This document shows, piece by piece, positions 2,982 through 11,298 of a stretch of DNA of 23,813 bases. This DNA is from a virus. Positions within the stretch are counted from its first letter, which is position 1. The number at the start of each line of letters is the position of its first letter. The stretch covers positions 1 through 23,813 of IMG/VR virus record IMGVR_UViG_3300034280_000394. The stretch is one strand, 5' to 3'. Position numbers and translations under genes: made by a program. The notes beneath the pieces were generated by a model. The model had not been told where the DNA came from. It searched no databases and saw only the letters and a program-made list of their open reading frames with translations.

Positions 2982-3492
2982 TCGTAATCCACTTCATTTG
3001 AGAACGAATATCGCTCATCTTTGAAGAAAAAGAAGGGGAGAATTTTTTATTTCTTTGCGTTAATTTATGCTTTTCCCTATTTTTGGGATCTTGAAAATAC
3101 TTGACCCTAGCAGCCCTCATCTTCTCTTTTGTCTCGGCAGAATGATTCTTTCCAAGCATGTAAACGTTACCTGCCTTGAGTTCTTTGTTTCTTCTTCGCT
3201 GGGATTCATTCATCTTTCTTCCCGGCGTTCCGTCCCCACCATCCGTCATATTTGAAATAGGGATACCCATATCTCTAAGGTTTTTTATGATCCTTATCTC
3301 CTCATCTTTTGCCTCGTTATGGGTGCTGAACACAAAACGCATAACTCGTACGTTCTCTTCGCCGTACTTTTGCAAAATCCTACAATGAATTTCGTTATGG
3401 GGTCTCTTCAGTGAGAAGGCCCGATTCTTGAGTCCTTTACCCACATAAAATGGTCTGCCGTTTGGCTTGAAATGAATATAAACGTACCACAT
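2902..3492 (-). CDS. GIY-YIG homing endonuclease
   Basis: About 196 residues from ATG 3492. The N-terminus is a GIY-YIG nuclease domain: MWYVYIHFKPNGRPFYVGKG supplies the VYI and YVGKG strands, followed by an Arg-rich helix and the acidic EEIRIIKNL region. The middle has repeated short basic DNA-binding motifs (GKNHSAETKEKMRAARVKYF, SPSFSSKMSD). The C-terminus WITNGEKNKQIKK plus VGWRPGR is a motif I know from phage-borne GIY-YIG and HNH endonucleases. A TTG at 3537 in the same frame would add 15 residues, but the GIY-YIG domain starts at the ATG. The gene is more AT-rich than its neighbours and overlaps the following HNH gene by 80 bases, both consistent with late insertion. Confidence 0.88.
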   Translation of the reverse strand: MWYVYIHFKPNGRPFYVGKGLKNRAFSLKRPHNEIHCRILQKYGEENVRVMRFVFSTHNEAKDEEIRIIKNLRDMGIPISNMTDGGDGTPGRKMNESQRRRNKELKAGNVYMLGKNHSAETKEKMRAARVKYFQDPKNREKHKLTQRNKKFSPSFSSKMSDIRSQMKWITNGEKNKQIKKIENIPVGWRPGRVLKK

Positions 3493-3560
3493 ACGCCAAC
3501 AATAGCAAATTGTTCCTTGACTTAGAAGCCCGGTCAATAAACATTCTTACAAATGCAACA

Positions 3561-3581
3561 GCCGTGGCTACGAACCACGGC
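3561..3581 (-). terminator. Hairpin after the PD-(D/E)XK gene, possible weak terminator
   Basis: GCCGTGG (3561-3567) pairs exactly with CCACGGC (3575-3581) across a 7-base loop. It lies 26 bases past the stop of the minus-strand nuclease gene and upstream of the GIY-YIG gene. On the minus strand only a loose T-rich stretch follows, so it may be a weak terminator, a 3' end stabiliser or the border of the inserted GIY-YIG cassette. Confidence 0.4.
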
Positions 3582-3606
3582 CATATGCTTCTTGCTTCTC
3601 AGGCGA

Positions 3607-4086
3607 TTAGAGCGAGGCAATTACCTTGGCCTTACTCACATCAATGTAGGCATTTAAACGCTCAGCGATCCCGCCATTCACAGTTGCTTGTGTCTTCGTC
3701 ATTTCATATTCTGGCTCAATCAACCAGCCATCCTTGTATGAGAAGATCGGCACGATAAACAGCATCTTATCGGGTACAAGGTAAAGGAAACCACGGAAAT
3801 CGACACCTAGCCTCCTACAAAGAGCAACACAACGATCCAGCTTGTGCGCTGTGACAAGCCATTGGTGCTGATACTTCGAGGCAAGTTCATCCGCAGTCAT
3901 GTTGCGGCACTTGACCTCAACACCAGAGATGATTGTGCCGTCCCTTGTGATGAACCCGTCTATGTCAGCCGGGGTATCTTTCGGGGTTTCAATAAATTCA
4001 AAACCCGGGAAACTCTGGAGGAACAGACTTATCGCTTCCCTCTCTTGGGCTAGAGTTTCCAGCCCTTTCGGTGTTAGGATGTCCAT
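3607..4086 (-). CDS. PD-(D/E)XK superfamily nuclease
   Basis: A 159-residue protein. The core PADIDGFITRDGTIISGVEV followed by KCRN gives an Asp (D41 or D43), then E57-x-K59 on the next strand, the signature of PD-(D/E)XK nucleases. The rest is alpha/beta (LVTAHKLDRCVALCRRLG, FRGFLYLVPDK), as in small single-domain phage nucleases resembling VRR-NUC or resolvase types. It follows, with an 89-base overlap, a small conserved protein gene and precedes the hairpin at 3561. A role in recombination or host DNA degradation is possible; the specific substrate is not readable from sequence. Confidence 0.75.
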   Translation of the reverse strand: MDILTPKGLETLAQEREAISLFLQSFPGFEFIETPKDTPADIDGFITRDGTIISGVEVKCRNMTADELASKYQHQWLVTAHKLDRCVALCRRLGVDFRGFLYLVPDKMLFIVPIFSYKDGWLIEPEYEMTKTQATVNGGIAERLNAYIDVSKAKVIASL

Positions 4087-7494: not shown

Positions 7495-7560
7495 AGTGCT
7501 GGGGATACATGAGTGCCGTAGACAAGTCAATAATCACCTTCACCATACTCGGGGAACCAG
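7495..7560 (-). promoter_or_regulatory. Divergent start region with a possible minus-strand promoter
   Basis: Only 14 bases separate the start codons of the divergent nuclease (7494) and rusA (7509), so any promoter must lie inside the opposing gene. On the minus strand TTGACT is followed after 17 bases by TATCCC just upstream of ATG 7494. The -35 is good but the -10 is poor. The spacer contains one exact ACGGCACTC motif (7511-7518 on the plus strand as GAGTGCCG plus T). A repressor bound there would cover both starts. Low to moderate confidence. Confidence 0.35.
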
Positions 7561-7877
7561 CGTCGAAGTCCAACAACCGACGATGGACGGGGCGGCGTCT
7601 TATCAAAAGCATAAAAGCCCTGAACTACTCCGATATGTTTAAACGACAGTGCCCCGTGCTTGATCCCCTGATGGATGGGGATCTCCGCGTCACGATGAAG
7701 ATATGGTATGCCAGCCGCAGGCCAGACCTAGACGCAAGCCTGATCTTCGACCTGATGCAGGATTGCATCTATAAGAACGACCGCGCCGTTAAGGAACAGC
7801 ACCTCTACTGGGGCCTCGACAAAAACAATCCTCGTGCCGAAATCACGGTCGAGAAGATCCATGTGCTGGACGCATAG
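7509..7877 (+). CDS. rusA: RusA-family Holliday junction resolvase
   Basis: 122 residues. It opens MSAVDKSIITFTILGEPASK-SNN as RusA proteins do and has the catalytic block RRPDLDASLIFDLMQDCIYK-ND-R. D73, D75 and D91 are the three conserved aspartates of RusA that bind metal and cut Holliday junctions. K94 lies just after. Length matches the family (about 120). It resolves recombination and replication junctions made by the ERF system encoded divergently. The gene ends at a 15-base palindrome that also holds the next start codon. Confidence 0.95.
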   Translation: MSAVDKSIITFTILGEPASKSNNRRWTGRRLIKSIKALNYSDMFKRQCPVLDPLMDGDLRVTMKIWYASRRPDLDASLIFDLMQDCIYKNDRAVKEQHLYWGLDKNNPRAEITVEKIHVLDA

Positions 7878-7888
7878 CTGCTATGCAA
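7870..7888. promoter_or_regulatory. 15-base palindrome, candidate operator (copy 1)
   Basis: GCATAGC-T-GCTATGC (7872-7886) is a perfect palindrome spanning the rusA stop and the next ATG. The surrounding 19 bases match 20555-20573 in the control region upstream of the terminase gene in 18 of 19 positions. Such a long match between a gene junction and a control region suggests a protein-binding site. Confidence 0.55.
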
Positions 7889-8221
7889 AAAGAAGAAAGC
7901 ATCTACGCTGCCCTGTTTGATCAACCCGGCACATCCCTCACGAACGAACGAATTCTCTGGCTGCATGTTCTGGCGCAGGCTCTCATTGATTGTTCTGTAA
8001 ACAACCCAGAGGTGAAACAAGAAGCCGTAAGTTGGGTGGGAACCCCGGATTTCGAAGAGGTATGCAGTTTTGCTGGGGTGGATACTCCTTTTATGCATAG
8101 CTTATTCCAGTCGGTTATGAGTGAGAGAAGTAGCAAGCGTGCATTCAAAAAAGCCATGCAATTCAGGTTCTTAGTGAGAACCTACATCGAAAACAACATG
8201 GGTTTTGCAGATAAGCTGTAG
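7883..8221 (+). CDS. Conserved phage protein of replication block, unknown function
   Basis: 112 residues, mainly helical. The stretch ILWLHVLAQALIDCSV, then QEAVSWVGTPDFEEVCSFAG and VDTPFMHSLFQSV, matches a family I know from many phages: L-W-x-x-V-L-x-Q-A-L-x-D, then A-x-x-W-[LV] and DF-x-x-VC-x-x-AG-[VL]-D. The second half looks like a helix-turn-helix, so DNA binding is possible. The gene begins 5 bases after the rusA stop and ends where a structured non-coding stretch begins. Confidence 0.75.
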   Translation: MQKEESIYAALFDQPGTSLTNERILWLHVLAQALIDCSVNNPEVKQEAVSWVGTPDFEEVCSFAGVDTPFMHSLFQSVMSERSSKRAFKKAMQFRFLVRTYIENNMGFADKL

Positions 8222-8603
8222 GCTTGCATATCTTGAGTGCCGTGTGATATGGTTGAGGTTCCGGTGCTTTGGCCACTTCGGCGCTGGTCGGCCCTGCTGG
8301 TTGGCAACTATGCTGGCAGGTAAACCGTAGCTTCCCGAAAGGGATGGGACGGGCAAATGATGGGGGTTGTTAGTGAAGAGCGACAACCCTACGCAAATGA
8401 GGAATACTCTCTCGCATAGCCGCCTAAATTGCGGCTCCGGTAACGGATAGAGAAACATCCTGAATTGCAGTTTGCCTTAGTTGCCTGTTGTTCGTGCCGA
8501 AGCGGCTCGTCCGGACAGAATTCCAGCTACCAATCCTGCGGATTAACTTCCGTGGGAAGTGGTAGCTGTTGCCCGAAACCTCGCTCTCATCGGACAGGGT
8601 GTA
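8222..8603 (+). ncRNA. Candidate structured RNA leading into an HNH gene
   Basis: 382 bases with no convincing coding frame but dense, compact base pairing. (a) 8261-8267 with 8281-8287. (b) CCTGC 8293-8297 with GCAGG 8316-8320. (c) TCCC-GAAA-GGGA 8333-8344, a GNRA tetraloop. (d) GGGTTGT 8364-8370 with ACAACCC 8383-8389, flanked on both sides by GCAAATGA (8353, 8393). (e) AGCCGC 8418-8423 with GCGGCT 8431-8436. (f) CCG-GTAA-CGG 8437-8446, a second GNRA loop. (g) a 9-bp stem CAGCTACCA 8524-8532 / TGGTAGCTG 8560-8568 closing a three-way junction with hairpins ATCC-TGC-GGAT and CTTCC-GTG-GGAAG. The HNH ATG follows 35 bases later. I cannot match it to group I, group II, HEARO/omegaRNA or riboswitch consensus. 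It could be a ribozyme, guide-like RNA or cis-regulator. Confidence 0.6.
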
Positions 8604-9365
8604 ATGGACATAACAGGAATAAGAGTTTCCGTAAGGCAAATAAAAAGAAACATAGCCAAGCTTAAGAAGAAAGATCCAAAAACAAAAAAAATTAACAGAG
8701 CTATAGAGAAGGCTGAGAGAAACCTTGCGAAGAGACTCTCTATACTTGATGAGATTGGTGTATCTGAGAAATTTGAGCGGAAACCTAGAAAGAAAAAGCC
8801 CACTTCATTTGGCTTTGGCGACTACAACAAGTACATAAGTTCAAAGGAATGGGCGGCGAGAAAGGCCTCCTATTATGAAACCCACCACAAAGAGTGTAGA
8901 TCCTGCGGCACAGATGAGAAAGAAATTCATTTGCATCATAGGAGCTATGCAAGAATATATCAGGAAGAAGATGGCGACCTGATTCCAATGTGCGTAGATT
9001 GCCATGCCATGCTTCATAAATTTCAAAGAAGCATGAAGCTACCAGTTGAAGACGCCACAAGAATGTGGCTATCAACAACAAACGGAACATCGAAAAAGAA
9101 AAAAATCAGGGCGGCATTGAGAAGTATGTCGTTTAAATCATTTGAAAGTTTGTGGGCCAAGAGATCAAAGCTTCATTCTTCCCCTGAGCAACATCTGGAA
9201 AAAACAATAGAGAGAATTGTTAAGGGTGATCTAGGGTCAAGAAACGATCTACTTCAGGATCATGCCGGGTTCAAGAAATCTATTGCCTTGGCAGGAAGAA
9301 CGGGTGTAGAGAAATTTTATGATGCAAGGGTTGATGCGCTCATACGCAAGCTTGAGCGTCAGTAA
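8604..9365 (+). CDS. HNH endonuclease with basic coiled N-terminus
   Basis: 253 residues from ATG 8604; a GTG at 8559 in frame lies in the RNA stem and was not chosen. Residues 1-60 are a Lys-rich helical region (VSVRQIKRNIAKLKKK). The HNH domain spans about 75-150: a CRSCG knuckle, EIHLHHRSYARIY, then IPMCVDCHAMLHKF, giving CxxC, HH and CxxC-H-x-x-x-H. A basic helical C-terminus follows. Its codons are AT- and AGA-rich compared with rusA and the primase, as is the GIY-YIG gene, which suggests separate acquisition. It lies directly behind the structured segment 8222-8603, so RNA and nuclease may move as a unit. No RuvC or PLMP motif of IscB/IshB is present. Confidence 0.85.
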   Translation: MDITGIRVSVRQIKRNIAKLKKKDPKTKKINRAIEKAERNLAKRLSILDEIGVSEKFERKPRKKKPTSFGFGDYNKYISSKEWAARKASYYETHHKECRSCGTDEKEIHLHHRSYARIYQEEDGDLIPMCVDCHAMLHKFQRSMKLPVEDATRMWLSTTNGTSKKKKIRAALRSMSFKSFESLWAKRSKLHSSPEQHLEKTIERIVKGDLGSRNDLLQDHAGFKKSIALAGRTGVEKFYDARVDALIRKLERQ

Positions 9366-9379
9366 AAAGGAGAACCACC

Positions 9380-9568
9380 ATGACAAAACCAAACCCCGGA
9401 ACCAAAGAAGCCATTGAAGCTGGCTGCACCTGCCCTGTGCTGGATAACAACTATGGCAGGGGCATCCCAATCAAAACCAAGGACGGCACTATCCAAACAG
9501 GATATTGGATGGATGGTGCGTGTCCTCTTCACGGGATCTTTGAAACCAAGGCCGAAGATGGGGAGTAA
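9380..9568 (+). CDS. Small Cys-containing conserved phage protein
   Basis: 62 residues, MTKPNPGTKEAIEAGCTCPV at the start and WMDGACPLHGIF near the end. The pair GCTCPVLDN and GACPLH is a signature of a frequent small phage and bacterial protein with a possible C-x-C/C-x-x-H metal site; no function is assigned to my knowledge. Strong AAGGAG ribosome site 8 bases before the ATG. It is 5 bases from the primase-helicase gene, so the two are co-translated. Confidence 0.8.
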   Translation: MTKPNPGTKEAIEAGCTCPVLDNNYGRGIPIKTKDGTIQTGYWMDGACPLHGIFETKAEDGE

Positions 9569-9573
9569 TCCCC

Positions 9574-11298
9574 ATGAGCCGCGAACAAAATCTTATTAAC
9601 ATAGCCCGCTATGGGCAGCACAAGTATCAGTGCCCTTGGTGTTCCCCCGAAAGGCGGAACAAGAAGGAGGCATGTCTCAGCGTCAACCGCGATGACAACA
9701 GGATTGTGTATTCCTGCCACCATTGCGGGGTCGAGGGTTTGATACCCATGCGCTCAGAGCATAGGAGACATGAAAAATTGGAACCCCGCAAAGATAAGGT
9801 GGTGGAGCGCCGCAAGATAGAGGACTTCAACCCCATCGAAGATTGGCATCTTGAATGGCTTTCGGAAAGAGGTATATCCGCCTCTACGGCACTCAAGTAT
9901 GAACTGGTTGGGTATGACAAGGGGGATGAGGCTGTTATCGGGTTCCCTTATTATGACAAGACAGGGAATGTGGTTGCGCTCAAGCAGCGCTTCACAGGCG
10001 AGAAGAAGTTCTTGTGCTGGCAAACCCCGGATTCATTCTTTGGTCTTCGGCACTTAAAGAAGGGTGACAACATCTATATCGTGGAAGGCGAGATGGATGT
10101 GCTGGCACTCGCAGAGGTTGGTGTGAGGGCCGTGAGTGTCCCGAACGGGGCACCGATGAAAGTGACGGAAGGGAAGATCGATCCTTCCGAGGATGGCAAG
10201 TTTAAATTCTTGTGGGATGCGAAGGAATATATCGATGCTGCTGAAAGGGTGCTCATTGCGACAGACCATGATGGTCCGGGAGAAGCGCTGGCCGAAGAGA
10301 TTGCTCGTAGAGTTGGGAAGGGCAAGAGTTGGCGCATTAAATTCCCCGAGGGCATCAAGGACGCAAATGAATGCCTTGTCAAATGCGGTGCGGCGGCTCT
10401 TAAGCGCTCGACCGAAGCGGCTCAACCTTGGCCAGTCCAAGGCCTCTACGATGCCTTCCACTTCCGGGATATGGTACGGGAGCTATACGAAAAAGGCGCA
10501 GGCAAAGGAGAGTCAACGGGGTATTCATCGGTCGATGATTTGTACACGGTGGTCCCGGGCCAAGTCACAATTTGTACTGGAGTGCCGTCGAGCGGCAAGT
10601 CGGAATTTATAGACCAGTTGATGGTTAATCTTGCCTCTAAGAAGGGATGGAGGTTTGGTATCTGTTCTTTCGAGAACGAGCCGCGTTTACACATATCAAA
10701 GCTGATGTCGAAGCGGGCACAACTTCACTTCTTTGAAGGCCCGACAAGGAGGATGAACGGTGAGGAGTTCAATGCGGCACTCGACTGGGTTCAGGAGCAT
10801 TTTGCCTTTGTTTGGCAGGATGATGGTGGGCTTGCTGACCTTGATAGCATTCTGGACAGGCTCCGCGTGGCCATCCTCCGTTATGGCGTTCGCGGCGCTG
10901 TTATTGATCCCTATAATTTTATCAGCAGAGACAATCGCAATCAGGCTGAGACGGAGTGGATCTCGGACATGCTCACGAAGGTTAAGGCGTTTGCGATGGG
11001 GCACGGGGTCCATATCTGGTTCGTCGCGCATCCCACCAAACTACAGCGTGGCACAGACGGGAAAATCCCGGTCCCCGGCGGTTACGACATATCTGGATCG
11101 GCGGCGTGGTTTGCGAAAGCAGACTGCGGGATCACAGTGCATAGGGAAAAGGACGATCCATTGACGGCACAAATTCATGTGTGGAAGTGCCGATTCGCAT
11201 GGGTGGGAAGGCAGGGCGCAACAAATCTTATTTACAATACGTCAACGACATGCTATGTCGAGCCTGTCGCCACAGAAGAAAAGGAGTTCAAGCTGTGA
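9574..11298 (+). CDS. Bifunctional DNA primase-helicase (T7 gp4 / Twinkle type)
   Basis: 574 residues. N-terminal zinc-binding primase module: C20PWC23 and C48HHC51. TOPRIM domain: GDNIYIVEGEMDVLALAEVG with E171, and ATDHDGPG (D231, D233). C-terminal RecA-like hexameric helicase: Walker A TGVPSSGKSEF (about 336-343), FGICSFENEP (motif H1a), Walker B GAVIDPYN (about 441-447) and IWFVAHPTK (sensor-like H3), then the GSAAWFAKADCGI region typical of DnaB/Twinkle. It makes RNA primers and unwinds the fork, so this phage carries its own replication start enzyme. Length is normal for the family. It leads a chain of small overlapping genes; the next begins at its stop (TGATG). Confidence 0.96.
   Translation: MSREQNLINIARYGQHKYQCPWCSPERRNKKEACLSVNRDDNRIVYSCHHCGVEGLIPMRSEHRRHEKLEPRKDKVVERRKIEDFNPIEDWHLEWLSERGISASTALKYELVGYDKGDEAVIGFPYYDKTGNVVALKQRFTGEKKFLCWQTPDSFFGLRHLKKGDNIYIVEGEMDVLALAEVGVRAVSVPNGAPMKVTEGKIDPSEDGKFKFLWDAKEYIDAAERVLIATDHDGPGEALAEEIARRVGKGKSWRIKFPEGIKDANECLVKCGAAALKRSTEAAQPWPVQGLYDAFHFRDMVRELYEKGAGKGESTGYSSVDDLYTVVPGQVTICTGVPSSGKSEFIDQLMVNLASKKGWRFGICSFENEPRLHISKLMSKRAQLHFFEGPTRRMNGEEFNAALDWVQEHFAFVWQDDGGLADLDSILDRLRVAILRYGVRGAVIDPYNFISRDNRNQAETEWISDMLTKVKAFAMGHGVHIWFVAHPTKLQRGTDGKIPVPGGYDISGSAAWFAKADCGITVHREKDDPLTAQIHVWKCRFAWVGRQGATNLIYNTSTTCYVEPVATEEKEFKL

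Follow-up and report, generated by a model that had tools for sequence, protein, structure and literature searches.

A non-coding segment that directly precedes an HNH nuclease gene in a 23.8-kb virus record (IMG/VR IMGVR_UViG_3300034280_000394; 23,813 nt, the whole of it hereafter called the window) raises two questions: whether it encodes an RNA of a new class, and whether the adjoining nuclease spreads that RNA or needs it. The original prediction, of a new structured RNA tied to the HNH gene, finds support in covariation, in a strict co-occurrence of the two and in Rfam searches that came back negative, and the observation behind it proves to be stronger than was claimed.

Organization of the locus

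Between positions 7509 and 11298 of the window, the order is a RusA-like gene, orf112, the RNA, the HNH gene, a 62-aa gene and a primase-helicase gene. The features that concern us are the following:

7883..8221, plus strand: orf112, the conserved upstream gene, 112 aa; relatives in 11 IMG/VR loci, aligned
8224..8253, plus strand: promoter-like element TTGCAT-N18-TATGGT with an extended -10 (TGn); conserved position
8260..8601, plus strand: structured RNA of type A (RNA-A), ~345 nt; homologues, covariation, no Rfam match
8604..9365, plus strand: HNH nuclease gene, 253 aa; PHROG HNH matches, invariant residues, AF2 model and VIA-align to HNH domains
9574..11298, plus strand: primase-helicase gene, Toprim and DnaB-type helicase by Pfam

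The orf112 product gave no Pfam or PHROG match, and the end of the gene abuts or overlaps the promoter-like element. Contig L003, near-identical to the window, carries an extra 94-aa coding frame (3776-4057) that is missing from the window and falls between the HNH and 62-aa genes, and contig L005 has an endonuclease VII/HNH-type gene (767-1219) between RusA and orf112. Matches to the Betaproteobacteria-1 RNA in related phages hint at a betaproteobacterial host.

A TTG-N18-TGnTAnnnT element lies near the orf112 stop in all 10 loci compared, starting within ~16 bases; on one strand of the whole 23.8-kb window, this pattern has three matches. In L004, TTGACA occupies the same promoter position. 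A generic sigma-70 promoter scan did not flag the element of the window, and it is called promoter-like here because it is conserved across loci. The RNA had been predicted to span 8222-8603. Its left 35 bases have to be given up, because 8224-8253 form the promoter-like element, and the RNA itself begins only near 8259-8260. Transcription of RNA-A probably starts near 8259, and the 5' leader ahead of the first helix, P1, comprises only ~7-17 nt after the -10 box.

Homologues and conservation of RNA-A

RNA-A adjoins the 5' side of the HNH gene in four IMG/VR contigs (L003, L004, L005, and L006), and independent DNA patterns drawn from two RNA-A sites matched these four contigs alone. L004 and L006 are two contigs that are identical over their shared stretch. 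The linkage and covariation described below are drawn from only three independent type A lineages, namely the window with L003, L004/L006, and L005. No relatives of RNA-A were found in the phage records searched or in bacterial genomes; pattern matches to bacterial genomes (L091-L094) extend over at most ~35 nt and look like chance.

Between the window and L003, the RNA region shows a single difference in 354 bases. RNA-A is more conserved than the HNH and primase genes, nucleotide identities between lineages being 77-81% for the RNA, 63-66% for the HNH gene, 64-70% for the primase, and 49-57% for orf112. As had been proposed, the segment is free of genes: the comparison of lineages revealed no conserved reading frame through 8222-8603. 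An Rfam scan of the segment gave no match at the gathering threshold and, at E<=10, nothing beyond chance matches.

Covariation and predicted fold

The folding energy of the segment is below chance (z -3.77; reached by 0 of 100 shuffles), but energy alone is not decisive because some 200-nt windows of nearby coding DNA also reach z values of -3.3 and -3.8. The decisive evidence for the predicted fold is covariation. RNAalifold, applied to four sequences, returned 16 pairs with double changes. In a hand-refined structure of 92 pairs in 16 helices, including one pseudoknot, 98.1% of cells are paired, compared with 36-46% when the 3' partners are slid by 1-3 columns. Double-sided changes occur in 18 of the 92 pairs, against 0-4 in the slid controls, and the observed structure score was reached by none of 500 shuffles. 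The predicted structured RNA is thus borne out in its homologues, and covariation of this extent, together with the lack of a family match, marks RNA-A as a genuine new class of structured RNA. Judged by its proposed pairings, the molecule is compact and apparently pseudoknotted:

8261-8266 with 8282-8287, plus strand: helix P1; 2 pairs with double changes
8288-8291 with 8573-8576, plus strand: closing helix UCGG/CCGA; invariant
8293-8300 with 8313-8320, plus strand: helix P2; 2 pairs with double changes
8325..8352, plus strand: helices P3 and P3a with GAAA tetraloop; invariant
8353-8357 with 8471-8475, plus strand: helix P10, enclosing P4-P8; 4 of 5 pairs with double changes, as counted after a one-column shift of one gap
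8364..8389, plus strand: hairpin P4 with loop AGUGAAGAGC; 2 pairs with double changes
8377-8381 with 8583-8587, plus strand: proposed pseudoknot between AGAGC of the P4 loop and GCUCU of the tail; complementary and invariant in all sequences
8393..8468, plus strand: domain P5a/P5b, enclosing P6, P7, and P8; double changes in 5 of 6 pairs of P6 and in 1 pair of P8
8485..8518, plus strand: helices P9/P9a (CTGT/ACAG; GCCG AAG CGGC); invariant
8524..8568, plus strand: long hairpin P11/P11a; 3 pairs with double changes as a single hairpin

Support is strongest for P6, P10, P1, P2, P4, and P11. The variants of P10 across lineages are GCAAA/UUUGC, AUAGA/UCUAU, and AUAAG/CUUAU. P3, P5, P9, the closing helix and the pseudoknot are invariant and were placed by complementarity alone; the closing helix, being invariant, contributes no evidence from covariation.

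Where at least seven helices had been claimed, at least ten were found, and both GNRA-type tetraloops are present, GAAA in P3a (GGAAA in one lineage) and GUAA/GGAA in P8. Some finer points of the original prediction did not survive the comparison. Positions 8524-8568, taken for a three-way junction, form one hairpin made up of P11 and P11a; the two small hairpins of the supposed junction lose pairs in the other lineages. The direct repeat GCAAATGA (8353, 8393), thought to flank a hairpin, is not conserved: L004 lacks it and L005 has just one copy. The first of the two copies forms one side of the covarying helix P10. Nor does the RNA end 35 bases before the HNH gene, as its near-invariant tail, CCTCGCTCTCATNGGACAGG, reaches ~8600 and adjoins the HNH ATG at 8604. 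Near this start, an SD-like AGGG/AGGA lies at the end of GGACAGG in the tail, and a scan of the window found no terminator between RNA-A and the HNH gene.

The HNH gene and its product

The HNH protein comprises a basic helical N-terminus, an HNH domain at approximately residues 70-145, and a helical C-terminus, and its zinc-type residues (C98, C101, H111, H112, C130, C133, H134, and H138) are invariant. Relative to the protein of the window, identity is 98% in L003, 66% in L004/L006, and 64% in L005. Matches to PHROG HNH families are confined to the HNH domain, as are matches in phage records (27-39% identity), and no full-length relatives were found in phage records, plasmids or bacterial genomes. 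Distant HNH genes (L095-L098) were considered as further sites of RNA-A and rejected, the stretches ahead of them being at most ~150 bases and too short to hold it. Pfam identified no RuvC, Nop or PLMP region in the protein, and NCBIfam no RuvC or PLMP region; the HNH domain is all that was recognised in its 253 aa. The gene has a dN/dS of ~0.12 (window vs L003), and in each of the three lineages its G+C content lies ~8-9 points under that of its own genome, as would be seen in a gene acquired from outside.

An AF2 model built from four sequences (pLDDT 71.5, moderate) predicts a Lys/Arg-rich N-terminal helical hairpin, the HNH domain, and a helical C-terminus; the N-terminal stretch KRNIAKLKKK is basic and mostly conserved. 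Structure searches with this model highlight HNH domains (Cas5-HNH Cascade, Gme HNH; Z 5.5-8) and common helical hairpins, and Foldseek gave no match at E<=0.001. TasR/TasH chains align with the model only over the N-terminal helical hairpin, a common arrangement. The structural matches, made with a predicted model, give nothing firm on RNA binding by the HNH protein.

Different RNAs occupy the same site

Alternative cassettes were located via relatives of the primase and of orf112. Three types were distinguished:

Type A RNA with the HNH gene, behind the promoter: window, L003, L004, L005
Type B, behind the same promoter-like element: L011 1683-1990; single sequence
Type C: L105 2874-3146, L106 2869-3029, L110 2910-3098, L015 3588-3860; also L046

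Type C has a conserved core, CCGCAGTCCGNAATGCAGAAGCGG, covarying hairpins of its own, a fold z-score of -4.07, and a terminator-like hairpin as its 3' end. It represents a second uncatalogued RNA family at this site. A pattern scan of viral contigs found type C in six contigs, all of them already in this phage group. The evidence for type B as a structured RNA is weaker, consisting of one sequence with a fold z-score of -1.61; in L011, it is followed by a queuine tRNA-ribosyltransferase-like gene and then a queuosine-precursor-transporter-like gene. Searches with nhmmer, blastn and a covariance model of the 5' part detected no homology of RNA-A to RNA-B, RNA-C or the Betaproteobacteria-1 RNA. 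By eye, type C resembles Betaproteobacteria-1 in two loops, which the Rfam model does not confirm.

The flanks of L011 and the window are ~94% identical on both sides; homology is lost at 8253 and picks up again at 9380, so that the RNA and the HNH gene are replaced as one block. Of 10 related records searched in full, 3 contain RNA-A together with the HNH gene and 7 contain neither, and stray copies of either were found nowhere else in those ten records. The type of cassette does not follow the phage tree, because identity of the primase groups the phages differently. The L005 primase (type A) shares 90% identity with that of L110 and 86% with that of L015 (both type C), but only 67-73% with those of the other type A phages; that of the window (type A) is 97% identical to that of L011 (type B). 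Such grouping of the flanking genes implies that cassettes were exchanged, at least two exchanges being needed. These sequence comparisons support the view that RNA-A and the HNH gene behave as one exchangeable cassette, and the description of the RNA as mobile holds in this sense.

More distant relatives

In L027 (3428-3544), L031 (3427-3543) and L030 (192-308), the interval from the RusA gene to the primase gene contains the Rfam Betaproteobacteria-1 RNA. In eight further contigs (L028, L032, L036, L038, L039, L042, L045, and L024), this interval holds, ~0.4-1 kb after the RusA gene, another conserved and apparently non-coding stretch, with ~71-95% identity over longer matches between contigs and strong-looking promoters (TTGACA...). 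In L032 and L042, it includes a hairpin, GTTCTAACGG, followed by a T run. No Rfam RNA was found in this stretch in the contigs scanned, with the exception of a tRNA in L045. Another related phage contig, L020, has two matches to type II hammerhead ribozymes on the minus strand (8411-8475 and 9529-9596). The isolated Synechococcus phage MinM2 (L099; OQ594354.1) has a 748-bp unannotated gap (3199-3946) from an HNH gene to a primase-helicase gene; by blastn, this gap resembled none of the other inter-gene stretches that were included.

Possible roles of RNA-A and the nuclease

Comparison of related phages demonstrates the RNA fold, the conserved promoter-like element, the strict pairing of RNA-A with the HNH gene, and the block replacement. 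The reading we prefer, and hold tentatively, is that RNA-A is a promoter-driven phage non-coding RNA gene whose type A allele is linked to a homing HNH nuclease that favours its own cassette. The site behind the promoter would then always hold a structured RNA in this clade, of differing type (A, B, or C). RNA-A and the HNH gene presumably share one transcript. The HNH enzyme would cut phage DNA bearing a rival cassette, and repair would copy in RNA-A together with the HNH gene, amounting to intronless homing in which the RNA gene next door is co-converted; RNA-A itself may act in trans during infection. This account draws support from the RNA fold, the promoter-like element shared by ten loci with different RNAs, the block replacement in L011, the joint presence or absence of RNA-A and the HNH gene, the grouping of the primases, the intact residues of the HNH domain, the low dN/dS and the low G+C content. 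As in free-standing homing endonucleases, the HNH domain is intact and the gene lies outside any intron or intein, and it is missing at the cognate site of the close relative L011, where it has been exchanged with its flank. Homing genes typically disappear from some of their carriers, whereas this HNH gene is intact in all three type A lineages, a pattern that would suit an RNA-dependent enzyme too. The block swap could also have come about by ordinary phage recombination without help from the HNH protein.

It is somewhat unlikely that the HNH protein has RNA-A as an obligate partner, with the RNA serving as scaffold or guide in a ribonucleoprotein nuclease. Such a particle would account for the strict co-occurrence of the two and their joint absence elsewhere, a linkage that persists over ~35% protein divergence, as well as for the conservation of RNA-A above that of the HNH gene and the adjacency of the two with no terminator between; the basic KRNIAKLKKK stretch, modelled as a helical hairpin, would suit it too, but this hairpin could equally bind DNA. 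A variable guide-like stretch is absent, given the short leader and the near-identity of the window and L003, and there is next to no 5' extension ahead of P1 for an omega-type 5' guide. The lack of a RuvC, Nop or PLMP region by Pfam and of a HEARO match also argues against it. It is doubtful that RNA-A and the HNH protein make up a novel type of RNA-dependent nuclease without relation to OMEGA, CRISPR and TIGR systems, carried at a locus dedicated to the exchange of phage non-coding RNAs; if true, phages would use it against rival phages or the host. A cis-acting leader that governs the HNH gene, and perhaps genes further downstream as well, would be in keeping with the tail that reaches the HNH start with its SD-like motif, which the proposed pseudoknot would adjoin, and again with the missing terminator. 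This role is nevertheless quite unlikely: phages that lack the HNH gene still keep the promoter and a structured RNA, and the terminator-like end of RNA-C suggests free-standing RNA genes at the site. The compact fold, GNRA loops, adjacent HNH gene and mobile behaviour would all be expected of a self-splicing or self-cleaving ribozyme, whether a new or a remnant mobile intron, served by an HNH homing endonuclease. We regard this as very improbable: no ribozyme or intron family matched at E<=10, the promoter lies directly ahead, orf112 is complete and the genes behind are intact in all types, and an intron is unlikely because no gene is interrupted.

Whatever the role of RNA-A, the locus is more unusual than a single new RNA, combining a conserved promoter position with interchangeable structured RNAs that show no detectable similarity in sequence, of which one comes with a linked nuclease. 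It offers a testable case for phages exchanging RNA genes in the manner of alleles.

Comparison with known systems

As the original prediction stated, neither group I introns nor HEARO/IscB systems fit, the Rfam searches being negative for both. The HEARO or IscB omegaRNA (RF02033) shares with RNA-A a position directly 5' of an HNH-containing ORF and mobile behaviour. However, the window has no match to the HEARO model at E<=10, the protein lacks a recognised RuvC/IscB region, and RNA-A lacks a 5' guide stretch. Phage group I introns that carry HNH homing endonucleases likewise combine a structured RNA with an HNH gene, but cmscan found no group I or other intron family at E<=10. RNA-A, in contrast to these introns, has its own promoter-like element and splits no gene: orf112 is complete, the downstream genes are intact, and other RNAs take the same place in relatives. 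TIGR-Tas systems with TasH also pair a phage HNH nuclease with RNA (PMC12045711). They differ in their repeat array; a TIGR array beside the HNH gene was considered here and rejected, there being no tandem repeats at 7800-9600.

GOLLD and ROOL are large ornate RNAs of bacteria and phages (PMC12286853), and RNA-A resembles them in being an elaborate non-coding RNA, with function mostly unknown in their case (PMC12286853). It is smaller (~345 nt) and has no Rfam match. Intronless homing by free-standing phage homing endonucleases has been reviewed for T4-like phages (PMC2988022), in which, as here, a nuclease gene lies beside an exchangeable locus and is exchanged along with its neighbour (PMC2988022). 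The linked allele in the present locus is a structured RNA gene and not a protein gene, and we only infer homing. The Betaproteobacteria-1 RNA (RF02932) has no match in the window, and so none to RNA-A, but it takes up the corresponding site from RusA to primase in L027, L030, and L031, which now places this Rfam family at the corresponding phage site.
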